Of a stretch of 52,425 bases of DNA, positions 8,935 through 25,977 are shown one piece after another; position 1 is the stretch's first letter; each line of letters begins with the position of its first letter. The stretch is from a virus, in IMG/VR virus record IMGVR_UViG_3300015371_000053, positions 1 to 52,425 of that record; one strand, given 5' to 3'. The notes under the pieces were generated by a model. That model searched no databases. It had not been told where the DNA came from and worked only from the letters and a program-made list of their open reading frames with translations. Both the position numbers and the translations under genes were made by a program.

Positions 8935-9143
8935 CACAACCAATCTAGACAAATGGGCGTGTCCCTTGCGCCACAGGACGAACGGGTATACGTTCCTGAT
9001 CTCCAGGTAGCGGGCTTGGTCCTGGATCACCAACTAACCAAGCGTGTGGGTAACCGGCGTTCGTTATGACTACTCCAGCGCCTAAGCCTCTTACAGGTTA
9101 GCGACCCATAGGCTCTATAGGGTACGTCTATGTCTTCAGCCAG
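8935..9143. other. intergenic region, no gene recognised
   Basis: No convincing coding frame on either strand. A 38-codon plus-strand frame from 8953 lacks a ribosome site. Small inverted repeats are present, for example TCCAGG/CCTGGA around 9001-9026. A promoter for the minus-strand replication operon must lie here or nearby, but I could not identify one with confidence. Confidence 0.5.
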
Positions 9144-9177: not shown

Positions 9178-9312
9178 GAGATGGAAGTACCACTCTCGAT
9201 AGGAGTGAATCGTAGAGATAGCTCTTCGAGCTAATTCTTCAAAGAAACACATCTCCCTTGGAATCAATCAGTTATCCCGACAAGTAGTCATAGTGATGCG
9301 CTGCAATTCCAA
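9178..9312 (+). ncRNA. candidate structured leader RNA after P1
   Basis: GAGATG (9178-9183) pairs with CATCTC (9250-9255), enclosing two hairpins, CACTC/GAGTG near 9191-9207 and TAGCTC/GAGCTA near 9218-9232. A second domain is closed by TTGGAAT (9258-9264) and ATTCCAA (9306-9312). There is no credible coding frame. The helices are seen by eye; no energy calculation was made. Confidence 0.45.
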
Positions 9313-9368
9313 GATATGAATAGTCAAGAGACTAACGCTCAACCCAATGAGAAACCTCTTGGCCATTC

Positions 9369-9397
9369 TTGTATGTATAGCATGTTTATGCTATACT
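9369..9397 (+). promoter_or_regulatory. promoter P2 with overlapping palindromic operator
   Basis: TTGTAT (9369-9374), 17-bp spacer, TATACT (9392-9397). A 9-bp perfect inverted repeat, GTATAGCAT (9375-9383) and ATGCTATAC (9388-9396), covers the spacer and the -10 box, so a dimeric repressor could block it. Predicted start at 9404, where the AGTTGACGGGAGAGGT sequence shared with the promoter at 21168 begins. Confidence 0.75.
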
Positions 9398-9403
9398 AGA
9401 TTT

Positions 9404-9498
9404 AGTTGACGGGAGAGGTCTATCCACTCCTAATAGGTTTGGATAGATATCCTCACTCGTTAACTAAAGCCCTGGAGTAATCCTCTGGGGCTTTTTTC
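9404..9498 (+). ncRNA. short structured leader with intrinsic terminator (attenuator-like)
   Basis: Starts AGTTGACGGGAGAGGT. AGTTGACG (9404-9411) pairs with CGTTAACT (9458-9465) with one G-U pair; inside it TCTATCCA (9419-9426) pairs with TGGATAGA (9440-9447). The terminator is AAAGCCC (9466-9472)/GGGCTTT (9488-9494) with inner GGA-GTAA-TCC, followed by six Ts. It separates promoter P2 from the gene at 9532, so it must be read through or is a small RNA in its own right. Confidence 0.65.
9466..9497 (+). terminator. intrinsic terminator between P2 and the first plus-strand gene
   Basis: Stem AAAGCCC/GGGCTTT with an inner GGA/TCC helix and a T6 tract at 9492-9497. The following TTTTTTCATGCCCAAAA (9492-9508) recurs exactly at 13804 and 15463. 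Confidence 0.75.
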
Positions 9499-9510
9499 AT
9501 GCCCAAAAAC

Positions 9511-9531
9511 GATCAGACAAGGAGACTGATC
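9511..9531 (+). promoter_or_regulatory. Shine-Dalgarno hairpin for the gene at 9532
   Basis: GATCAG (9511-9516), loop ACAAGGAGA (9517-9525), CTGATC (9526-9531). The ribosome site AAGGAG is the loop and the stem ends directly at the ATG. Same loop with other stems at 13820, 14163, 14825 and 15489. This hairpin also fixes the start at 9532 rather than the in-frame ATG at 9499. Confidence 0.75.
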
Positions 9532-10230
9532 ATGGAATCAACACCAAGTACCAGAACCAAAGAGGTTCTAGAAAAGGAGATGGAAAAGCTCCGAGAGAAC
9601 CTCTACACCACCGAGGATATGGCGGAAGAACTTTCGTCTGGCCGTGAGGAAGTTGAAGCCTGCAACGTCGAGTATGACTTCAACGATGAGCCTCTGGTGG
9701 ATGAGTACAAGCCTGAACACCCCCAGGTTCAGGCTGTGGTCAACGAGCAGGTCGTTGAGGTAGACGAACAGCTCCTGGAAGTTCTGCGGTACCTCTGGAG
9801 AGAGGGCATCGTGACCTTCTACTCCTGCCAGGGAAACCCTGGAGCAGACATCAACGACCCGGATTCTCGGGCTCTCAACAGTGCCTACATCTTCATGCAA
9901 GATGACGGTCGCTGGCGTGAGCTGGTGGAAGACCTCTTCTGGCGTCAGCGCAAGCTGGGTCTCAACCGTCAGGAGTGGGAACTCATCACCCGGATGTTCT
10001 TCCCCACGGTGAAGTCCTCTACCTGGGTGGAACACGACCACGATGATCTGGCGATCCACGGTCAGTGGGTCGAAGAGATCATCAGCCCCAGTCCCTCGAC
10101 CTGGATCGAGGAACACGACCACAACCTCAGTGACAACCGTGGCAAGGGGATCACAGTCCGGTTCCCCAACGAAGACGTGCCTCTTCTGGAGAGCGTCCTG
10201 AAAAAGAGAGAGAGGCTGATCAAGCGATGA
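9532..10230 (+). CDS. hypothetical phage protein with SCQG motif
   Basis: 232 aa, acidic. N-terminus is a charged helix (TKEVLEKEMEKLRENLYTT). The centre reads LRYLWREGIVTFYSCQG followed by AYIFMQDDGRW; a short domain of the form leu-trp-x2-gly-ile-x-thr-x3-ser-cys-gln-gly is, from memory, widespread in phage proteins of unknown role. The C-terminal third is rich in His and Trp (STWVEHDHDD, STWIEEHDHN), an internal near-repeat. First gene after the P2 leader. Confidence 0.8.
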   Translation: MESTPSTRTKEVLEKEMEKLRENLYTTEDMAEELSSGREEVEACNVEYDFNDEPLVDEYKPEHPQVQAVVNEQVVEVDEQLLEVLRYLWREGIVTFYSCQGNPGADINDPDSRALNSAYIFMQDDGRWRELVEDLFWRQRKLGLNRQEWELITRMFFPTVKSSTWVEHDHDDLAIHGQWVEEIISPSPSTWIEEHDHNLSDNRGKGITVRFPNEDVPLLESVLKKRERLIKR

Positions 10231-10451
10231 GCTTGCTCAACTGCGTTCGCCCCGGTGACCGAGTGGAGATCACCGGGGTCATGCGTGATGACCCCGCTCC
10301 CATGCAGATCGGAGACCGAGGAACAGTCACCAGGATCAACCCTAGCTCCAGATTGGAGCCCATCCAGTACTTCGTGGACTGGGACAACGGCAGGTCTCTG
10401 ATCCTGCTGTCCATCGACCCCTTCAAGGTCGTCACCTGGGAGGAGCCGTGA
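10227..10451 (+). CDS. DUF4314-like protein
   Basis: 74 aa: VRPGDRVEITGVMRDDPAPM, then GDRGTVTRI and FVDWDNGRSLILL, ending DPFKVV. This matches the remembered DUF4314 pattern (G-D-R-V ... D-D-P-x-P ... G-x-x-G-T-V ... W-D-N-G-R-x-L), a small SH3-like beta barrel of unknown function common in actinobacteria and their phages. ATGA overlap with the gene before and GTGA with the one after. Confidence 0.75.
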   Translation: MSLLNCVRPGDRVEITGVMRDDPAPMQIGDRGTVTRINPSSRLEPIQYFVDWDNGRSLILLSIDPFKVVTWEEP

Positions 10452-10681
10452 CCGAAGAAGACGAGACGGACGAGACGATCCGTCAGGCCCTATTGGAGGA
10501 CGCCATGGTCGAAGGATATGACCCAGATATCGATCCGTACGAAGACATGCCGAAGTTCGAATTCGTCGTCGTTATCCGTTGCCCGACGCAGGAACAAGCA
10601 GAACAAGTCATGGCCGAACGAATCAACCATGACGAGGAGTACGGATTCGACTACGAGATCGGATGGAGCAGGGAATCGTGA
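10448..10681 (+). CDS. acidic hypothetical protein, 77 aa
   Basis: GTG start in a GTGA overlap. N-terminal 35 residues are very acidic (TEEDETDETIRQ..., DPDIDPYEDMP); the rest resembles a small alpha/beta unit (FEFVVVIRCPTQEQAEQVMA) as in short ferredoxin-like folds. Function unknown. Confidence 0.65.
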   Translation: MTEEDETDETIRQALLEDAMVEGYDPDIDPYEDMPKFEFVVVIRCPTQEQAEQVMAERINHDEEYGFDYEIGWSRES

Positions 10682-10860
10682 GCGAAACACCAGGAGGCGA
10701 ACGTACAGCGTGGTGCAGGTGCTTTATCCCTCCGAATAATCGGTGCAAGCAGATAGTGCCGATTGATCAGCCATTCTGCGACGACTGCATTGAACATGCG
10801 GAAACCGGAGACAGCGATCACTGCAACCTGGAAACAGCGGTGCTTCCGGGGTTGCCATGA
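10678..10860 (+). CDS. small zinc-ribbon-like protein, 60 aa
   Basis: GTG 10678 was chosen because it overlaps the upstream stop (GTGA) and has GAGCAGGG in front. Cysteines occur as WCRCF, RCKQ and FCDDCIEH, a treble-clef or zinc-ribbon-like spacing. No function recognised. Confidence 0.65.
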   Translation: MSETPGGERTAWCRCFIPPNNRCKQIVPIDQPFCDDCIEHAETGDSDHCNLETAVLPGLP

Positions 10861-11108
10861 AGAGGCTGTTCGAGAAGTACTGGATAGCCGGTCTGGATTT
10901 CTGTGGCGCTGCGTTGAACGTCTTCGTCGCGGCCACAATCCACACCTGGTTCCAGGTCGTCAACTTAGCCGCAGCAGGGTTTCTCGTTTGGCTTGGTTTC
11001 TGGTCAATCAGTTTCGCTAAAAGGCAAGAACGAGAGAGAGCAAATCGAGAGGAGGAGGCGAGAATACGACACATCAATGATGAATTTCCGTGGCTAGGAG
11101 GAGAGTAA
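10857..11108 (+). CDS. small membrane protein, two helices
   Basis: 83 aa. Hydrophobic stretches at about 11-28 (AGLDFCGAALNVFVAATI) and 33-52 (VVNLAAAGFLVWLGFWSISF), then a charged cytoplasmic tail rich in Arg and Glu (KRQERERANREEEARIR). Overlaps neighbours by ATGA and TAATG. Role unknown. Confidence 0.7.
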   Translation: MKRLFEKYWIAGLDFCGAALNVFVAATIHTWFQVVNLAAAGFLVWLGFWSISFAKRQERERANREEEARIRHINDEFPWLGGE

Positions 11109-11398
11109 TGGAAACCGCAAGATGCGCAGTTGATGTAGTAGCTGGAGTAATGCCGCCCGAGGTGCAGATCGAAGACACCCCGGATGGTCCTCAGCCTTCT
11201 GGCTGGGTGAAAGCCCGTCCAGAAGAGGAGCTGACCCGTCGCTTCGTAATCACTTCCAAAGAGTGGAACGACGCAGATGACAAGGAGAAGGGGAACCTTC
11301 TCATGGACCTTTCCGGGAAGGCCACTGCCTACGGTGCCTACCTGATGCAGAGCCCGAACCGAGTGAACTGGGTCAAGATCGAGTGGATCTGGTTCTGA
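11108..11398 (+). CDS. hypothetical protein, 96 aa
   Basis: ATG 11108 follows AGGAGGAGAG. Acidic protein with FVITSKEWNDADDKEKGNLL then MDLSGKATAYGAYLM, suggesting a helical core, and a C-terminal strand NWVKIEWIWF. Resembles short actinophage proteins of unknown function; no family named. Confidence 0.7.
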   Translation: METARCAVDVVAGVMPPEVQIEDTPDGPQPSGWVKARPEEELTRRFVITSKEWNDADDKEKGNLLMDLSGKATAYGAYLMQSPNRVNWVKIEWIWF

Positions 11399-11411
11399 TG
11401 GAGGGTGAGTC

Positions 11412-11750
11412 ATGAGTTGGTGGAAACGACGCAAGCCGAAGAAGTGGGAGATCGAAGTGTCTGAAGAGACGTTCAATCTCGCCAAAGAAATGTTCGATGG
11501 CAAGACCTTGGAAGAACTCGTGGAGATCAACCAAGCCTTCGCCACCTACTTCCGTGAAGAGCACGCGGAGCTGCTGGAGGAGATCAATCAGTACCCCTAT
11601 GGCTCGCCCGAGCACCGGGACATCACGTACCGGCTCTACACCATGGGACTACACATCGAGAATGACCGCCGAATGCAGGCAAACCAGACCATGAACTTCG
11701 TCCTGAGCCAGAAGGAGTTCGAGAAGCTCTACTACGGGAGTGACTCGTAG
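11412..11750 (+). CDS. hypothetical helical protein, 112 aa
   Basis: Starts MSWWKRRKPKKWEIEVSEET. Mostly alpha-helical and charged through KTLEELVEINQAFATYF and HAELLEEINQ; C-terminus EFEKLYYGSDS. A GGAGGGTGAG ribosome site precedes the ATG. No function recognised. Confidence 0.65.
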   Translation: MSWWKRRKPKKWEIEVSEETFNLAKEMFDGKTLEELVEINQAFATYFREEHAELLEEINQYPYGSPEHRDITYRLYTMGLHIENDRRMQANQTMNFVLSQKEFEKLYYGSDS

Positions 11751-11777
11751 TAATCGACAAGTGGATAGAGGAGCACG

Positions 11778-12134
11778 GTGGAAACAACCAAGATTAAGAC
11801 AGCAGACCTTCTGACGACGGTTCAGGAGAACAGGGACAAGCACAAGACGGAGTTCGAGAAGGCTCTGAAGAAGTGGAGGAAGACGGCGACCAAGGCCCTT
11901 CGCAAGGCGGCTGACAAGGCCGAGAAGGACGGCGACATCAACCAGGACCCACTTGGTGGACTTCCCAAGCCTGTTCACTACCTGAAGTCCTACGACACGG
12001 TGATCAGGCGTCTCCAGATGGAGGTCGAGAAGACCGTGGAGCTGGACGACCGGGAGTTCCAGTCGTGGGTCCTCGACCAGTGGCAGTGGTCTGGAGCCTT
12101 CGTCGGCACTACGTCGCTCTACAACTCGCGATGA
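11778..12134 (+). CDS. Lys-rich hypothetical protein, 118 aa
   Basis: GTG start after GAGGAGCAC. The first 60 residues are a highly charged helix (EKALKKWRKTATKALRKAAD), and the second half reads PVHYLKSYDTVIRRLQMEVE and DREFQSWVLDQWQWSGAF. The pattern (helical N-terminus, then HYLKSYD..I..L) recurs in actinophage proteins from memory, without assigned function. Confidence 0.65.
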   Translation: METTKIKTADLLTTVQENRDKHKTEFEKALKKWRKTATKALRKAADKAEKDGDINQDPLGGLPKPVHYLKSYDTVIRRLQMEVEKTVELDDREFQSWVLDQWQWSGAFVGTTSLYNSR

Positions 12135-12253
12135 AGGTCAGGGTCAGCAAGAGGGGTCTGGACTGGTACGCCGAAACAGACCAAGAGGTCATCTGCACCT
12201 TCTCGTGGCACGCTGCCATGCAGGCAGCCTGGGGACTGGTGATGTTCCCGTGA
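12131..12253 (+). CDS. hypothetical protein, 40 aa
   Basis: ATG overlaps the preceding stop (ATGA). Sequence MKVRVSKRGLDWYAETDQEV with a C-terminal helix TFSWHAAMQAAWGLVMF. Short but coupled on both sides and of normal codon composition. Confidence 0.55.
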   Translation: MKVRVSKRGLDWYAETDQEVICTFSWHAAMQAAWGLVMFP

Positions 12254-12390
12254 GCAAGTGCGACCTGACGATGGTGTCCAAGGCCGTCAAGGACCACACC
12301 CACACCTGTACCGGTGACCACCGGGACCAAGGCCACTACTGCGCAGGGTGCAAGCGTTGGTGGTGGCGGAAGGAGGACATGAACAAGTGA
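12250..12390 (+). CDS. small Cys/His-rich protein, 46 aa
   Basis: GTG in a GTGA overlap. MSKCDLTMVSKAVKDHTHTC, GHYCAGCKRWWW: four cysteines with nearby histidines, a probable single zinc-binding knuckle. Function unknown. Confidence 0.55.
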   Translation: MSKCDLTMVSKAVKDHTHTCTGDHRDQGHYCAGCKRWWWRKEDMNK

Positions 12391-12548
12391 GGGACGAGGG
12401 CTTGAAGTTCCGGGTTGAAGTGGCCTGCGACGGATACGCCAACCTCACCGAAAGCGACGTGCCCGACTCGGTGGTATGCGATGAGGACTACCTCCAAGGA
12501 GCCAGGGACGCTGCCGAGGGAATCCGCTCCGCGCTCGAAGCCACCTAA
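12387..12548 (+). CDS. hypothetical protein, 53 aa
   Basis: GTG in a GTGA overlap with the gene before. Reads MRDEGLKFRVEVACDGYANL, then an acidic helix (DYLQGARDAAEGIRSALEA). No family recognised. Confidence 0.5.
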   Translation: MRDEGLKFRVEVACDGYANLTESDVPDSVVCDEDYLQGARDAAEGIRSALEAT

Positions 12549-12559
12549 GTGAAGGAGAA

Positions 12560-12700
12560 ATGAACCTCTACTACTGCAACCACTGCGGGCAGACAGTGGA
12601 ACGAGATTCAGAGAGGCGCTGGATCAAGTCGATCTGCTCAAGAACAGGCAAGACAACTCGTCTATGGAAAGTGAGGAAGGGACGTAGTGAAGGACGGTGA
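12560..12700 (+). CDS. small basic Cys protein, 46 aa
   Basis: AAGGAGAA precedes ATG 12560. MNLYYCNHCGQTVERDSERR and SICSRTGKTTRLWKV: a C-x2-C knuckle (CNHC) followed by a basic tail. Overlaps the next gene by 14 bases. Such single-knuckle proteins are frequent in this region. Confidence 0.55.
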   Translation: MNLYYCNHCGQTVERDSERRWIKSICSRTGKTTRLWKVRKGRSEGR

Positions 12701-13022
12701 GAAGAAGCAAGTACCGGCTCCCGATTGGTTGATGGATCTGATCTACGCGAAGCTGGAAGCAATCAAGCCAGCTCTGGCCAACAACCCGGCCAAGATCATC
12801 CTGACCCCAGCTCGGGAAGCCCCTGAAGACACTGATGAGAGTGTCAAGAGGTGGGAGAGGTGCTGCGACAAGTGCGGTACCTACTGCCCTCCACTGGATG
12901 ACGACGCTGAAGAGGCCAACTTCTTCACCGGACTCACCAAGCTCGATTACGAGGAAAAGGAGATCTTGTTCTCCTTCGGGATGTGCCCCAAGTGCGCAGG
13001 AGAGGCAGATGGAAAAGGATGA
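12687..13022 (+). CDS. zinc-ribbon-like hypothetical protein, 111 aa
   Basis: GTG start after AAGGGA. N-terminal lysine-rich helix (LIYAKLEAIKPALANN), then two Cys pairs, CCDKCGTYC and MCPKCAGE, about 45 residues apart, forming a likely zinc ribbon around an acidic insert (DDDAEEANFF). Function unknown. Confidence 0.65.
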   Translation: MKDGEKKQVPAPDWLMDLIYAKLEAIKPALANNPAKIILTPAREAPEDTDESVKRWERCCDKCGTYCPPLDDDAEEANFFTGLTKLDYEEKEILFSFGMCPKCAGEADGKG

Positions 13023-13218
13023 CGTACTTCACAAGCTGAGATATATGGCTTTTAGGTACGCCAACAGGGCTAGAGCGAGCATCGATCGCGATGATCGCGA
13101 TTTATGGGCTGCTAAGGCAGCAGTTGTTCGCGACTGCATCGAGTTGGTCGAACAGATAGACCAGAAGCCCAAGTTCACAGACAGGTTCAAGCGAGATGAA
13201 ACTTATCGAAAAGGGTGA
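13009..13218 (+). CDS. hypothetical helical protein, 69 aa
   Basis: ATG 13009 follows GGAGAGGCAG. MEKDDVLHKLRYMAFRYANR and DLWAAKAAVVRDCIELVEQI: two amphipathic helices joined by a short charged turn. No family recognised. Confidence 0.6.
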   Translation: MEKDDVLHKLRYMAFRYANRARASIDRDDRDLWAAKAAVVRDCIELVEQIDQKPKFTDRFKRDETYRKG

Positions 13219-13423
13219 TGACGACACCTTAAAAAACATCACGGTTCTGGAGCTTACCGAGAGGAACCTTCGTGGTCTCCTGGAGAAGCTCTCCATTGAA
13301 GGGTCTGCAAGGACTCTGATCGATGGTGAAAGCAAGATCGCAGTTCGCGCGGTCAAGAACGAAGAGCACTATTCAAATCGACCGGCAGGAATCATGTACA
13401 TGCCGGGAAAGGGATATGAGTGA
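13196..13423 (+). CDS. conserved actinophage-type protein, 75 aa
   Basis: LELTERNLRGLLEKLSIEGS, ARTLIDGESKIAVRAV and HYSNRPAGIMYMPG. The pattern leu-thr-x-arg-asn-leu-x2-leu-leu-x-lys-leu ... gly-ser-ala-arg-thr-leu ... his-tyr-x2-arg-pro-x-gly is one I recall from many actinobacteriophages, always without function. Overlaps the preceding gene. Confidence 0.7.
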   Translation: MKLIEKGDDDTLKNITVLELTERNLRGLLEKLSIEGSARTLIDGESKIAVRAVKNEEHYSNRPAGIMYMPGKGYE

Positions 13424-13450
13424 ATGCTTCCCGGAATTAGGGAGTACAAG

Positions 13451-13702
13451 ATGGCGATCAAACTGGCTAAGAAGAAAGAGCGTTGGGCATGGGTCTCAAT
13501 GTTCCTCTACTCAGCCGGTGTAGCACTGAGCATCTTCCTTGCAATGAAGTACAAGGACGATTCGCTCTGGGCGTTCATGATGGGAGGGATGATGTGGGCG
13601 AATCTCTACTTCGTCATCGTGAGCATCAGTGACATCCGAATCAACCAGAAAGCGGCAGAGATTCTGGTTGTAGAAATGGAGAAACGCGAAGCCTTGAAGT
13701 AG
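13451..13702 (+). CDS. two-helix membrane protein, 83 aa
   Basis: From ATG 13451 (AGGGAG six bases upstream): MAIKLAKKKERWAWVSMFLY. Two membrane helices, WVSMFLYSAGVALSIFLAM and FMMGGMMWANLYFVIVSI, with lysines at the N-terminus and a charged C-terminal helix. An in-frame ATG at 13424 is an alternative. Last gene before promoter P3. Confidence 0.65.
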   Translation: MAIKLAKKKERWAWVSMFLYSAGVALSIFLAMKYKDDSLWAFMMGGMMWANLYFVIVSISDIRINQKAAEILVVEMEKREALK

Positions 13703-13731
13703 TTGCGTATACAGTGTTTGTACTGTATACT
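13703..13731 (+). promoter_or_regulatory. promoter P3 with overlapping palindrome
   Basis: TTGCGT (13703-13708), 17-bp spacer, TATACT (13726-13731). Inverted repeat GTATACAGT (13707-13715)/ACTGTATAC (13722-13730) spans the spacer and -10 box, the same layout as P2 with a different operator sequence. Confidence 0.75.
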
Positions 13732-13737
13732 TGTAGT

Positions 13738-13809
13738 CAGTGGGTAGGGGAAATCTGTCCCTAAAACGCCCGCCCCCCTTCAGAGGAGAAATCCTTGGAG
13801 GGGTTTTTT
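13738..13809 (+). terminator. P3 leader hairpin and intrinsic terminator
   Basis: Leader hairpin TAGGG (13745-13749)/CCCTA (13759-13763) is followed by the terminator CCCCTTC (13775-13781)/GGAGGGG (13797-13803) with an inner AGGA-GAAA-TCCT hairpin and T6 (13804-13809). It separates P3 from the gene at 13836, so it is an attenuator candidate. TTTTTTCATGCCCAAAA follows, as after the P2 leader. Confidence 0.75.
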
Positions 13810-13814
13810 CATGC

Positions 13815-13833
13815 CCAAAACAAGGAGAGTTGG
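13815..13833 (+). promoter_or_regulatory. Shine-Dalgarno hairpin for the gene at 13836
   Basis: CCAA (13815-13818) pairs with TTGG (13830-13833), with the ACAAGGAGA loop at 13820-13828 plus one A-G mismatch closing it. Weakest of the five examples. Confidence 0.55.
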
Positions 13834-13835
13834 AT

Positions 13836-14075
13836 ATGGCAAGGACCATCACCATCGAGTTCAACGAGGGCGTTGACGAGGGAACGTTCTGTCGGTGGGC
13901 GAACGTGATCGAGGCTTTGACCTGGATCGAGCCCGACAAGGCCAGTGTGACCGTTGCGGACGACGGTCAGACCGACGAGAAGCTCACGGAGAAGCTCAAC
14001 GCAATGGCCAAGGACCACGCTGACAAGCTTTGGACCACCGAAGAGAAGGAAGAGAAGAAGGCCAAGACCGCCTGA
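13836..14075 (+). CDS. small acidic hypothetical protein, 79 aa
   Basis: Starts MARTITIEFNEGVDEGTFCR. Strand-helix-strand beginning (TITIEF, helix to ALTWIE, KASVTVAD) looks like a ferredoxin-like half, then a charged helix (LTEKLNAMAKDHADKLW) and a Lys/Glu tail. Start chosen from AAGGAGAG. Product unknown. Confidence 0.7.
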   Translation: MARTITIEFNEGVDEGTFCRWANVIEALTWIEPDKASVTVADDGQTDEKLTEKLNAMAKDHADKLWTTEEKEEKKAKTA

Positions 14076-14157
14076 TCTCGCCGCAGCCGCTGACGAGCGG
14101 TTCGTCCACGAGGAGCGTGGCCCCGGCTCTTGCGAACACGGGGCACACAACTTTCTA

Positions 14158-14176
14158 GTCAGACAAGGAGACTGAC
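14158..14176 (+). promoter_or_regulatory. Shine-Dalgarno hairpin for the gene at 14177
   Basis: GTCAG (14158-14162), loop ACAAGGAGA (14163-14171), CTGAC (14172-14176); ATG follows directly. Confidence 0.7.
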
Positions 14177-14668
14177 ATGCCTAATTGGGAACGCGGTGAC
14201 TACTTCGAGATCACCCACCTCAACGGAAACAAGGCTTTGGCCTGCGGTTGGTCAAATAGAAACCGCGCTAACAGCGCACAGAGTTTCGCTTGCTTCGGGT
14301 GCAACGTCTCTCACGGCATCAGCGAAATCAAGGAAGTCCGTCAACTGATCGTCCTTGACCCGGACGACTGGCAGGCGCTGAGCGACCTGTTCCGGTCATA
14401 CGACGTGATTCGCGGCCACCCCAATGTCGGCGAAACCACCCACAACCGCCGCGTGGACTACCTGCAGACGGCTCTTCAGAAGATGAGGCGACCTCAGCCC
14501 GTCGAGGTCTACTCCCACGTCGTGATCAGCTCGACCGAGCAGGAGGACACAGGCGACAAGGTGGCCGTCGCCATGTGTGGAAAGGTCTGGAAGCCCGGTG
14601 CTGAAAACATCGAGGTCAAGGGCCACTGCCCAGAGTGCCAGTCCCTTGCAGGGGTGTGGACGGCATGA
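14177..14668 (+). CDS. hypothetical Cys-containing protein, 163 aa
   Basis: Starts MPNWERGDYFEITHLNGNKA. First domain contains FACFGCNVSHG; the C-terminal domain has VAMCGKVWKPG and GHCPECQSL, a Cys4 arrangement of the CG-x-x-W-x-P ... CP-x-C type that I recall from many actinobacterial phage and chromosomal proteins of unknown function. The middle is helical (DYLQTALQKMRR). Overlaps the next gene by ATGA. Confidence 0.7.
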   Translation: MPNWERGDYFEITHLNGNKALACGWSNRNRANSAQSFACFGCNVSHGISEIKEVRQLIVLDPDDWQALSDLFRSYDVIRGHPNVGETTHNRRVDYLQTALQKMRRPQPVEVYSHVVISSTEQEDTGDKVAVAMCGKVWKPGAENIEVKGHCPECQSLAGVWTA

Positions 14669-14841
14669 AGCTCGGATACGTGCTTGGTGCCGTGAACCTG
14701 GCGATGAGCGCCGCGAACCTGTTCGTTGGCGATTTTCTTGAGGCGACCGTGCTGGGATCAACCGGCCTGTTCGTCATCGGAGCGGAAGCAGCCGCTTCAG
14801 ATCGGAAGAACAAAGCACTAGACCACAAGGAGAGGTCATGA
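14665..14841 (+). CDS. small membrane protein, 58 aa
   Basis: MKLGYVLGAVNLAMSAANLF and ATVLGSTGLFVIGAEAAA are two hydrophobic helices separated by a short VGDFLE turn; the C-terminus is charged. Starts in an ATGA overlap. The 3' end contains the Shine-Dalgarno hairpin of the next gene. Confidence 0.65.
   Translation: MKLGYVLGAVNLAMSAANLFVGDFLEATVLGSTGLFVIGAEAAASDRKNKALDHKERS
14821..14837 (+). promoter_or_regulatory. Shine-Dalgarno hairpin for the gene at 14838
   Basis: GACC (14821-14824), loop ACAAGGAGA (14825-14833), GGTC (14834-14837); ATG follows directly. Located inside the end of the upstream coding region, so coding and RNA constraints overlap. Confidence 0.65.
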
Positions 14842-15098
14842 ACGTGCTCATGAAGTTCAGAAACGACACCAACTGGGATCTCCTGGTTGTTGTCGAGGAG
14901 GCCACCTTCAACGGTGAGCCTCTGCGTCTTCTCCCCGACGAGAAGATGATCATCCACGGAGAGACCGAGGATCACTACTTCTGCACACCACTGATCGGTC
15001 CCGGACTGGTCAACGTGGTGGTGCCCAAGGACAAGGCCCGACACCTTAACGAGAGGGAGAAGCAGTCCCTGATCGGCAAGGAGATCCGAATCAACTAA
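14838..15098 (+). CDS. hypothetical protein, 86 aa
   Basis: MNVLMKFRNDTNWDLLVVVE ... IIHGETEDHYFCTPLIGPGL. Beta-rich in the first two thirds with a basic helical end (KARHLNEREKQSLIGKEI). No family recognised. Last gene before the long gene-free structured region. Confidence 0.7.
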   Translation: MNVLMKFRNDTNWDLLVVVEEATFNGEPLRLLPDEKMIIHGETEDHYFCTPLIGPGLVNVVVPKDKARHLNEREKQSLIGKEIRIN

Positions 15099-15101
15099 GA
15101 C

Positions 15102-15468
15102 CTAGAAAACATTGGTGTCGCAGCGAAACCGTGAGTGCCCTTATATCAGGGGATAAACACAAAACCGTGGGCTGAGCGACTTAAAGAAACATTACCCAAC
15201 GCCAATGTTTTCTAGCTATGTTGACTCGCGCTGCAACAAATAGGACTGGTACAGCCCCGACCAGTAGAAGGCGAGCAGGGGGCTCTTCCGGTTGATGTGG
15301 CCGGAACGAGGGTTATCCAGAACCCAACCCCTCACATGGGGGAAGACAAAAATGGACGTAGGTACCACATAAGGAGACATGGGCGGCACCCATGATCTGA
15401 AGCTCGGTTAGCCACCGAACACCTACGAGAGAGGGGTCGGCCTATATGGGTCGGCCCCTCTCTTTTTT
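15102..15468 (+). ncRNA. 367-nt highly structured candidate noncoding RNA
   Basis: No credible coding frame. Helices found by eye: P1 CTAGAAAACATTGG (15102-15115)/CCAATGTTTTCTAG (15202-15215), 14 bp perfect; inside it GTCGCAGC (15117-15124)/GCT-GA-GCGAC (15171-15180). Then ACTGGT/ACCAGT (15245/15260), GAGC/GCTC (15273/15282), TTCCGG/CCGGAA (15286/15301), GGGTT/AACCC (15310/15321), CCCC/GGGG (15328/15338). A domain closed by GTAGGT (15358)/ACCTAC (15421) holds CATGGG/CCCATG and TCGGT/ACCGA. It ends in a 14-bp terminator. It may be a leader or an independent RNA; no upstream promoter was recognised. Confidence 0.65.
15429..15468 (+). terminator. strong intrinsic terminator ending the structured RNA
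   Basis: GAGAGGGG then TCGGCC (15429-15442), loop TATATG, GGTCGG then CCCCTCTC (15449-15462): 14 bp with two G-U pairs, followed by T6 at 15463-15468. TTTTTTCATGCCCAAAA follows at 15463-15479, identical to the two other modules. Confidence 0.85.
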
Positions 15469-15483
15469 CATGCCCAAAACCTA

Positions 15484-15502
15484 GTTGGACAAGGAGACCA
15501 AC
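15484..15502 (+). promoter_or_regulatory. Shine-Dalgarno hairpin for the gene at 15504
   Basis: GTTGG (15484-15488), loop ACAAGGAGA (15489-15497), CCAAC (15498-15502), one base before the ATG. Confidence 0.7.
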
Positions 15503-15503
15503 G

Positions 15504-15749
15504 ATGACCCAAAACAAGCTTCAGCACAGGGCGAGCCTGCATGAGAAGGCCGTCCAGCGTGTCGCGTCGAACGAGATCGATGCAATCAAGACCCCGCGCA
15601 AGCGAGGCCAAAACAAGAACAGCCGTCTCACCATCATCAAGGTCAAGCCCGAGGTGATGGAGGTGGCGAAGAAGCTCCTCGAAGACTCCGAGGAGCACGG
15701 CTACACCCGGATGGAGATCGTCAGCGAGGAAGAAGTGATCCTCCGGTAG
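15504..15749 (+). CDS. basic hypothetical protein, 81 aa
   Basis: MTQNKLQHRASLHEKAVQRV; a basic N-terminal half (KTPRKRGQNKNSRLTIIKVK) followed by a helix, PEVMEVAKKLLEDSEEHGY, and a final strand, RMEIVSEEEVILR. Could bind nucleic acid through its basic part; this is inference. First gene after the structured RNA. Confidence 0.7.
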   Translation: MTQNKLQHRASLHEKAVQRVASNEIDAIKTPRKRGQNKNSRLTIIKVKPEVMEVAKKLLEDSEEHGYTRMEIVSEEEVILR

Positions 15750-20424: not shown

Positions 20425-21190
20425 TCCTTTCGAGGGTTCAGGTGAGATGCCCGAATTTCTCAAAGCAATCCTCAGTGATATCTCGGAAAAAGCTTTTGAT
20501 ACCGGATTGGCCCATGACACCGCCGCAGAGGAGATCATGCCCACGGCGGAACAGCTAGAAGTAGCTCCCGGCGATCTGGTCCACACCTACGACATCAATG
20601 GTGATGGAGCACTGATGGTCGGTGAAGTCATCGATCCGGAAACCCAAGCCGAGGAATATCCAGACTGGCAGACCAGACTGGAGAAGTACTACATCCTGGG
20701 ACGTTGGCGCTCGTCCAACGAACCTCTGGGAGAAGAAGTCCTTGGTTGGGAAGCAAGATCCAAGCTGATCAAGATCACTCGCGATCAGTACATCGAGATC
20801 CTTCGTTGGATCGAGATGCGGGGTGAAATCCCCAAGGAAGGTACCGAGTGGTGGTACATCCTGGTCAGCGAAAAGCTGAACGATGCTGCCGAAGTCAATC
20901 CAGACAAACTGTTCCACGTCTTGGATTGCAACAACTGTGGCTCCCATGGAGTCATCGTGAAGGTAGTCAAGACCATTACTGCTTACATGCGTCCCGGATA
21001 CGACTCGGAAGAGGAGAATCCAAAGGGAACGCTGTACGAGCTGAGCAACCCGCGTGAAGACGAAACAGAAGGCACGGCAGAGGTCTTCTGTCTCTCATGC
21101 GGTCACCAAGAAGTACTTCCGGATGACGTGAGAGTCCTTCGGAAGGGAAACCGCACAGCGGTAGATCTTGTCAGTGTGTTGCGTATGTGA
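20411..21190 (+). CDS. hypothetical protein with two Cys pairs, 259 aa
   Basis: MEGNSPFEGSGEMPEFLKAI; acidic overall. The C-terminal third has LDCNNCGSHG and FCLSCGHQEV, a split zinc ribbon. A central segment reads YYILGRWRSSNEPLGEEVLG. ATG 20411 chosen because GAGAGGGG lies eight bases upstream; GTG 20402 is also in frame. The 3' end contains the -35 and -10 boxes of promoter P4. Confidence 0.65.
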   Translation: MEGNSPFEGSGEMPEFLKAILSDISEKAFDTGLAHDTAAEEIMPTAEQLEVAPGDLVHTYDINGDGALMVGEVIDPETQAEEYPDWQTRLEKYYILGRWRSSNEPLGEEVLGWEARSKLIKITRDQYIEILRWIEMRGEIPKEGTEWWYILVSEKLNDAAEVNPDKLFHVLDCNNCGSHGVIVKVVKTITAYMRPGYDSEEENPKGTLYELSNPREDETEGTAEVFCLSCGHQEVLPDDVRVLRKGNRTAVDLVSVLRM

Positions 21191-21196
21191 TATACT
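21168..21196 (+). promoter_or_regulatory. promoter P4
   Basis: TTGTCA (21168-21173), 17-bp spacer, TATACT (21191-21196). Predicted start at 21203, exactly where AGTTGACGGGAGAGGT begins, seven bases after the -10 box as in P2. It overlaps the end of the upstream coding region. Confidence 0.75.
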
Positions 21197-21202
21197 GATA
21201 AC

Positions 21203-21310
21203 AGTTGACGGGAGAGGTGCGCCCGTTACGGTGACATAGCCCCGAGACCTTTGAGGTCCGGGGCTTTTGTCATGTCGGAGCCCGGTCATCCCTTGGAGGG
21301 GGACCGGGCT
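21203..21310 (+). terminator. P4 leader with two successive terminator-like hairpins
   Basis: Leader hairpin ACGGG/CCCGT. First terminator AGCCCCG (21238-21244)/CGGGGCT (21259-21265) with inner GACCT-TTG-AGGTC and TTTTG. Second hairpin AGCCCGGTC (21279-21287)/GACCGGGCT (21302-21310). Both lie between P4 and the gene at 21348, so expression needs read-through or the short RNA has its own role. Confidence 0.7.
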
Positions 21311-25354: not shown

Positions 25355-25977
25355 GTAAGCAGAACGATGACTTCAAGGCTGTGGTCGAGTCTCGGAGTAT
25401 CGAAGAACAGATCAAGCACCTGATTAGCGACAAGATCCCAGGCGAGATCGAGTTCGTTGGTGTGCTGAGAAGCAACATCAAGACCATGCTTTCCAGGTCC
25501 AGAATGCATTTCGCTGGGTCTGACCCATGGCCTGACGGTGATGAAGCACTACGAGCGACCGCAGATCACATGAAGGCCAACATCTACGCCTGCCTTTGCA
25601 ACTCGCTGGCGTGCGGAATCGTAGTAGGCAAGAACAAGGAGTACCAAAAGAAAGAATCCGAGGAGTACTACGAACTCTTCGGAAAAGACCTCGTTTTCCG
25701 GCTTAGCTGCGCGGCGCAGACGGCTGGGATTACGTCCGATGAGGAGATGATGCTGTCACTTCGAGATGCTCTCGAATCAAGCGTTCAGGGAGTCGGGCAG
25801 ATGATGTCGTTCAAAGAGAAGACCGGCATCGCAACGCTGCATATCTGGGATCTGTGGAACGCAGCTCTCGGTAGTTCCTGTTTGACCCTTTACACCATCG
25901 GTTTCGAGCTGGGTGTGAAGTGGAGCGAAGAAGAGATCCTAAATGGGATCTTGGAGGCATCTGAAGAAGGAAGCTAA
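25351..25977 (+). CDS. hypothetical protein, 208 aa
   Basis: MSKQNDDFKAVVESRSIEEQ; helical protein with acidic C-terminus. Cysteines are scattered (YACLCNSLACGIVVG). Ends one base before the next gene's start. No family recognised. Confidence 0.65.
   Translation: MSKQNDDFKAVVESRSIEEQIKHLISDKIPGEIEFVGVLRSNIKTMLSRSRMHFAGSDPWPDGDEALRATADHMKANIYACLCNSLACGIVVGKNKEYQKKESEEYYELFGKDLVFRLSCAAQTAGITSDEEMMLSLRDALESSVQGVGQMMSFKEKTGIATLHIWDLWNAALGSSCLTLYTIGFELGVKWSEEEILNGILEASEEGS

Follow-up and report, generated by a model that had tools for sequence, protein, structure and literature searches.

Start-associated sequences and the hairpins of the window

Mycobacteriophages have been known since 2011 to carry short repeats called start-associated sequences (SAS), for which no function has been agreed, and the relevant portion of a 2024 paper still calls their role not known (PMC11373665). 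As set out in the sections of the reports that describe them, SAS of the Cluster K mycobacteriophages (TM4, Pixie, Anaya) read GGGATAGGAGCCC, that is, GGG[ATAGGAG]CCC with the central word in brackets (PMC3203893), and those of the Cluster EF Microbacterium phages (AnnaSerena, Krampus) read GGGAAAGGACCCC, or GGG[AAAGGAC]CCC (PMC7302621). In the same sections, about half of SAS are paired with an upstream, promoter-bearing inverted repeat, the extended SAS (ESAS), and SAS are not termed an RNA hairpin. Here we describe five sites of this general build in a 52,425-base uncultivated virus record (IMG/VR IMGVR_UViG_3300015371_000053; the whole record is referred to as the window). At these sites, a Shine-Dalgarno (SD) sequence lies in a constant loop between arms that differ from site to site yet stay complementary.

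The likeness to SAS is one of geometry and position. According to the descriptive parts of PMC3203893, the complementary arms of Cluster K SAS (GGG/CCC) flank 7 nt that contain the SD core, the whole lying a few nucleotides 5′ of the start codon; copies recur within a genome at non-structural genes that are unrelated to one another, and most have a noncoding gap upstream. Cluster EF SAS are described in PMC7302621, in its account of the repeats, with the same geometry and ~10 copies at starts. All five window sites occupy the ribosome-binding site (RBS) position, a few nucleotides upstream of a start and in one orientation, and precede five small non-structural genes, four of which have a noncoding gap of >50 bp upstream (that of gene 14838 is only 16 bp). 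The arms set them apart: those of Cluster K are nearly constant, and those of Cluster EF are constant except at gene 39 and enclose another loop, with no sequence relation to the window found, whereas the window arms (GATCAG, CCAA, GTCAG, GACC, and GTTGG, around the loop ACAAGGAGA) differ at every site and match neither GGGATAGGAGCCC, with up to two mismatches allowed, nor GGGAAAGGACCCC. No ESAS repeat was seen in the window, where a conserved leader (AGTTGACGGGAGAGG or CAGTGGGTAGGGGAA) and a terminator stand in its place, and a nucleotide search of 50,697 phage records gave no match that would place this phage in Cluster K or EF. By the strict definition of consensus, ESAS, and cluster, the window sequences are not SAS; from the shared geometry and position, they probably work alike.

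Covariation supports pairing of the arms

The original prediction had placed five SD sequences in an identical loop with stem arms that change together and had each stem end at or within two bases of the start codon. The sites at 9511, 13815, 14158, 14821, and 15484 carry the arms that it listed, including an A·G closing mismatch at 13815, and all five, on the + strand, adjoin the ATG or end ≤2 nt from it. At four of them (9511, 14158, 14821, and 15484), the 9-nt loop ACAAGGAGA is closed without gaps by 6, 5, 4, and 5 Watson-Crick pairs, respectively, of differing sequence. The site at 13815, with a predicted local free energy (dG) of −0.5 kcal/mol, is not favored in its folded context and adds little to the case. 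The loop word occurs six times in the window, always on the + strand, against 0.65 copies expected; the sixth copy (11280) lies inside an open reading frame and has no stem. A CTA trinucleotide stands immediately 5′ of the stem at three of the five hairpins (14155, 14818, and 15481, in CTAGTCAG, CTAGACC, and CTAGTTGG).

In a conditional test that took in the 616 SD-containing loop words shared by at least two starts in the window, the five sites of ACAAGGAGA, with stems of 6, 5, 5, 4, and 0 pairs, gave a P value of 1.6e-9 (~1e-6 after Bonferroni correction for 616 words), and no other word had two or more closed copies. Over the five sites, 92% of cells are paired, with both-sided change at all five pairs. 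The covariation score was 1.20, against 0.27 for shuffled sequences (0/500), and was ≤0.35 when the partner was slid.

Two related phages were reached in IMG/VR via the helicase and the leader motif TANACT-N6-AGTTGACGGGAG: G001 (IMGVR_UViG_3300031939_000013; 40.6 kb) and G002 (IMGVR_UViG_3300027927_000003; 76.3 kb). Proteins are extensively common to the window and these relatives (the head protein at 90% with G002 and the helicase at ~70% with both). G001 has a hairpin, GTCTG[AAGGAGA]CAGAC, that precedes a non-homologous first gene, and G002 has ATGTGG[AAGGAGA]CCACAT, TCTGTG[AAGGAGA]CACAGA, ATGTG[TCAGGAGAG]CACAT, and TTTGG[AAGGGAGAC]CCAAG, the last of them weaker. The ATGTGG/CCACAT site of G002 sits on an ortholog (27% identity) of window gene 9532, whose own stem is GATCAG/CTGATC; in the aligned pair, then, the hairpin is kept with a wholly different stem. 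A further swapped stem, CCTG[AAAGGAC]CAGG, was found directly 5′ of the annotated start of AnnaSerena gene 39 (L065, 15341 to 15357), a gene to which PMC7302621, in its treatment of this gene, ascribes an ESAS without an SAS. When the sites with 7-nt loops (G001, G002, and AnnaSerena) were counted together, 95% of cells were paired and the score was 1.07, against 0.23. Formation of the stem, a real small RNA structure, is well supported by these comparisons, and the covariation claim is borne out both by the window score and by the further, differing stems of the two relatives.

Other searches returned less. A covariance model of the five sites, which the original prediction had proposed as a check, did find the G001 and G002 sites, yet only at E values of ~1 to 5, because the loop length differs in these phages. 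The pattern CATGCCCAAAA..ACAAGGAGA gave only two matches in IMG/VR, both within coding DNA and attributable to chance, and a helicase search of genome contigs gave no match. Matches to the second type of leader pattern (CAGTGGGTAGGGGAA) other than that of G002 were dismissed as chance.

We examined the Cluster K arms in the same light, using 112 start-near ATAGGAG sites from seven genomes. GGG/CCC was present at 86 of these, and the deviants were mostly one-sided, with ~15 third-pair mismatches. A single clean both-sided change was seen (Pixie CGG/CCG, extended by T-A). A GTAC/GTAC site may owe its arms to a local repeat, and the long-stem copy of Aminay does not lie at an annotated start. Given this single case among mostly one-sided deviants, these arms are unconvincing on their own as proof of covariation. 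Since SAS arms hardly vary, their sequence alone could not reveal pairing; the arms of the window group differ at every site yet stay paired, which argues that pairing itself is selected. The window sites offer the clearest covariation seen for this geometry, and their variable-stem hairpins suggest what the unexplained SAS of some soil-bacterium viruses are. The SAS puzzle then becomes a simple, testable claim on a 3- to 6-bp stem.

Two Cluster K sites deserve separate mention. At ~12138 to 12170 of Aminay (Cluster K7; L067), the ATAGGAG loop tops a GC-rich stem of ~14 bp, a possible decoy or regulator site. Pixie, TM4, Unicorn, and Anaya (L061 11261, L064 7435, L066 10931, and L068 11771) have in common a site CAAGGG[ATAGGAG]CC(A)CTTG (Pixie has AAGGGG); allowing for one bulged A, its arms would form ~6 bp.

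A local fold that may expose the SD sequence

On balance, the predicted folds and the setting of the sites indicate that the hairpins most likely keep the SD sequence free beside terminator or leader RNA. Each site is, on this reading, a short RNA hairpin (a stem of 4 to 6 bp and a loop of 7 to 9 nt) with the SD sequence in its loop and the start codon at the foot of its stem, and the stem sequence would be free to vary since its sole task would be local folding. Where a strong terminator or a structured leader lies close by, a start region that folds on itself would keep AAGGAG from pairing with the pyrimidine-rich terminator arms and U-runs. The 30S subunit could dock on the exposed loop, after which the weak stem would melt and the AUG at its base would reach the P site, an order suggested by the fact that the stem ends at the start codon. 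The largest gain would fall to genes on transcripts that read past a terminator and are not coupled to an upstream gene, and the hairpin may serve as a compact translation element for genes that directly follow terminators.

When all AAGGAG and AGGGAGA starts of the three phages (the window, G001, and G002) were compared, a terminator-like hairpin with a U-run lay ≤75 nt upstream of 6/9 hairpin starts and of 3/45 plain starts (Fisher P = 2e-4). The hairpin start at G002 7888 is a seventh behind a terminator, one with a larger loop, and the tenth hairpin site, G002 6142, is likewise downstream of a terminator. Folding predictions point the same way: at 7 of 10 sites, native arms gave more SD exposure than random permutations of the same composition (for example, 1.00 versus 0.60, 0.98 versus 0.63, and 0.97 versus 0.64). 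At W15504, the SD sequence was captured (exposure of 0.03) when the folded stretch included only the 3′ half of the terminator; with the whole terminator, exposure was 0.70, against 0.49 for permuted arms.

Several observations weigh against this reading. No gain in predicted exposure was obtained at the other 3 of the 10 sites (W13836, G2_8938, and, in short contexts, W15504), and the suggestion in the original prediction that the hairpin may favor ribosome capture fits, as improved SD exposure, the predicted folding of the remaining 7. Many genes of the window phage, some of them downstream of terminators, use AAGGAGA without a hairpin. A caveat on the observation itself is that, when loop sequence was ignored, stems of ≥5 bp at SD starts outnumbered the expectation only modestly (3 found and 0.24 expected for the + strand), and the case therefore rests on a constant loop with changing stems. 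The original prediction held that a loop kept without complementary flanks in related phages would speak against it, and here the outcome was split. Two of three orthologs lack the hairpin: the G001 ortholog of gene 13836 (37% identity over 68 amino acids) has an unpaired GATCAAGGAGAGAAC (AAGGAGA), and the N-terminal G001 ortholog of gene 15504 has no hairpin site. The third, the G002 ortholog of gene 9532, keeps a hairpin with its differing stem. No hairpin sites were found in L055, a more distant relative (helicase at 57%), which, together with the two G001 orthologs, marks the hairpin as dispensable. Finally, all five hairpin sites of the window have AC in front of AAGGAGA and none of its ten plain AAGGAGA starts does (Fisher P of ~3e-4), a constancy that pure SD exposure does not need and that leaves room for a factor reading the loop.

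Alternative explanations

Such a factor is the basis of the strongest alternative, also raised in the original prediction, which we regard as possible though unlikely: the hairpin would be the operator of a trans-acting factor, a phage or host RNA-binding protein or a small RNA, that reads ACAAGGAGA in any stem and switches the gene set jointly. Besides the constant AC, it would account for a single loop word common to unrelated genes of one genome, as also in Cluster K (ATAGGAG) and Cluster EF (AAAGGAC), and for the additional ATAGGAG loop of Aminay, ~40 nt 5′ of a normal SAS, with its long GC-rich stem. However, the loop varies among close relatives (ACAAGGAGA, AAGGAGA, AAGGGAGAC, and TCAGGAGAG), constancy within a phage could stem from copying of sites, and no candidate RNA-binding protein was identified, CsrA being absent from the window and three relatives. 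A broader proposal, which we hold yet more tentatively, is that several unrelated actinobacteriophage groups each carry a group-specific SD loop word on free stems, read by a dedicated factor that switches a gene set jointly. In that case SAS would act as RNA operators and not as improved ribosome sites.

It is improbable that the hairpins are targets of an endoribonuclease like RegB of T4, which would cut GGAG in start regions for a timed shutoff of early mRNAs. RegB sites and phage translational operators do resemble the window sites in that phage control is directed at the SD region, all loops here carry an unpaired GGA or GGGA, and RegB alone cuts GGAG in which GGA is unpaired while the last base is partly constrained (PMC3014915). 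Structure, however, inhibits RegB, which favors a 3′ flank rich in A over a stem (PMC3014915); RegB sites have such a flank, whereas the window sites have a paired stem, and no nuclease or repressor was identified. No RegB-like gene was seen, though no detailed search was made.

Repression through a CsrA/Rsm-type site deserves scarcely any credence. Operators of this type likewise have GGA within the loop of a short hairpin that covers the SD sequence, and ACAAGGA in the window loop fits the consensus ACARGGA; CsrA sites obtained by SELEX (systematic evolution of ligands by exponential enrichment) have invariant ACA and GGA, with GGA in hairpin loops and stems mostly of ≤4 bp (PMC7652899). However, the UGU expected after the loop match is missing, and the ACA-R-GGA of the window loop does not recur in the G001 and G002 loops (GAAGGAGA or TCAGGAGAG, without ACA). 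CsrA is mostly absent from Actinobacteria. We reject this reading because there is no CsrA gene in the window or three relatives: PF02599 was absent from the window, G001, G002, and G003, with positive controls, the host not having been identified.

We likewise reject, as highly improbable, the reading in which the inverted repeats act in the DNA by binding a transcription factor and RNA folding is incidental: the arms are short inverted repeats close to promoters and terminators, and Cluster O and EG phages have true palindromic repeats of such a sort, as the relevant passages of PMC4351075 and PMC7302621 describe, but known DNA palindromes have constant arms around a variable center, whereas the window sites keep the center, vary the arms, and have every copy on the coding strand over the SD sequence. 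Chance complementarity around a favored RBS word has next to nothing in its favor, the modest excess of long stems in the scan ignoring loop sequence notwithstanding, given the conditional P value for ACAAGGAGA and the recurrence in two relatives, including a 6- to 7-bp stem on an ortholog; on these sequences, chance is excluded for the set of sites, but not for the single weak site at 13815.

Genes and leaders around the hairpins

The window encodes a DNA polymerase, a primase, a DnaB-type helicase, a major head protein, and a tape-measure-sized gene. A nucleotide search with a 6.4-kb region against the 50,697 phage records gave no match, and the best helicases among the matches listed are 25 to 29% identical, many from Gordonia phages; the phage therefore belongs to a distant actinobacteriophage-like group, with Actinobacteria as likely hosts. 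Small genes without assigned function form a rightward run that diverges from the replication genes, and the five hairpins all fall in its first 6 kb (Table 1). The proteins of genes 9532 and 15504 had no match in IMG/VR, and the latter had none in the phage records.

Table 1. Hairpins, the genes behind them, and upstream signals in the window (dG, predicted local free energy)
Feature	Position	Strand	Description
SD hairpin 1	9511..9531	+	GATCAG[ACAAGGAGA]CTGATC, 6 bp, 9-nt loop; adjoins ATG 9532; dG −5.1; stem pair probability at least 0.92
SD hairpin 2 (weak)	13815..13833	+	CCAA-A[ACAAGGAGA]G-TTGG, 4 bp behind loop-adjacent A·G mismatch; ATG 13836
SD hairpin 3	14158..14176	+	GTCAG[ACAAGGAGA]CTGAC, 5 bp; adjoins ATG 14177; dG −3.8
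SD hairpin 4	14821..14837	+	GACC[ACAAGGAGA]GGTC, 4 bp; adjoins ATG 14838; dG −3.0; stem probability 0.98
SD hairpin 5	15484..15502	+	GTTGG[ACAAGGAGA]CCAAC, 5 bp; then 1 nt (G) and ATG 15504; dG −3.5
Gene after hairpin 1	9532..10230	+	232 aa; function not assigned
Gene after hairpin 2	13836..14075	+	79 aa
Gene after hairpin 3	14177..14668	+	163 aa; function not assigned
Gene after hairpin 4	14838..15098	+	86 aa; function not assigned
Gene after hairpin 5	15504..15749	+	81 aa
Promoter −10 (TATACT), type 1 leader (AGTTGACGGGAGAGG at 9404), intrinsic terminator	9387..9492	+	Just upstream of hairpin 1
Promoter −10 (TATACT), type 2 leader (CAGTGGGTAGGGGAA), intrinsic terminator	13725..13810	+	Just upstream of hairpin 2
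Intrinsic terminator, 17-pair stem and U-run	15427..15468	+	Just upstream of hairpin 5

Several of the terminators are preceded by a promoter −10 element and a leader with invariant first bases, AGTTGACGGGAGAGG or, in a second type, CAGTGGGTAGGGGAA. The order is repeated as a cassette, in which the −10 TANACT is followed after 6 to 7 nt by an invariant sequence, presumably the transcript 5′ end, and then by a structured leader, an intrinsic terminator, and the gene. Such cassettes lie at 9387 to 9492, 13725 to 13810, and 21189 to 21272 of the window, at 25957, 22367, and 18384 of G001, and at 9064 and ~8003 of G002 (all on the − strand in the relatives), and orthologous cassettes precede the same genes at window 21205 and G001 18384. 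The cassettes look like attenuation elements or an RNA-borne antiterminator (put-like). A 5′-terminal stem common to all leaders was considered and set aside, being clear in G1_22367, less so in W9404 and G1_18384, and within the shuffle range in the others.

The terminator U-run is followed by a conserved (C)ATGYCC at 9499, 13811, and 15470 of the window and also in G001, G002, and L055 leaders. It is in frame with the gene only sometimes, and we rejected ATGYCC as the start of a leader peptide because its frame differs between sites. Rfam gave no window matches above the gathering score and nothing convincing over 9300 to 15600 at E values of up to 1. Upstream of hairpin 5, a 405-bp noncoding gap (15096 to 15470) is predicted to be strongly folded as RNA (minimum free energy of −148.6 and z score of −5.0 for 15096 to 15505) and contains a 14-bp inverted repeat, CTAGAAAACATTGG/CCAATGTTTTCTAG.

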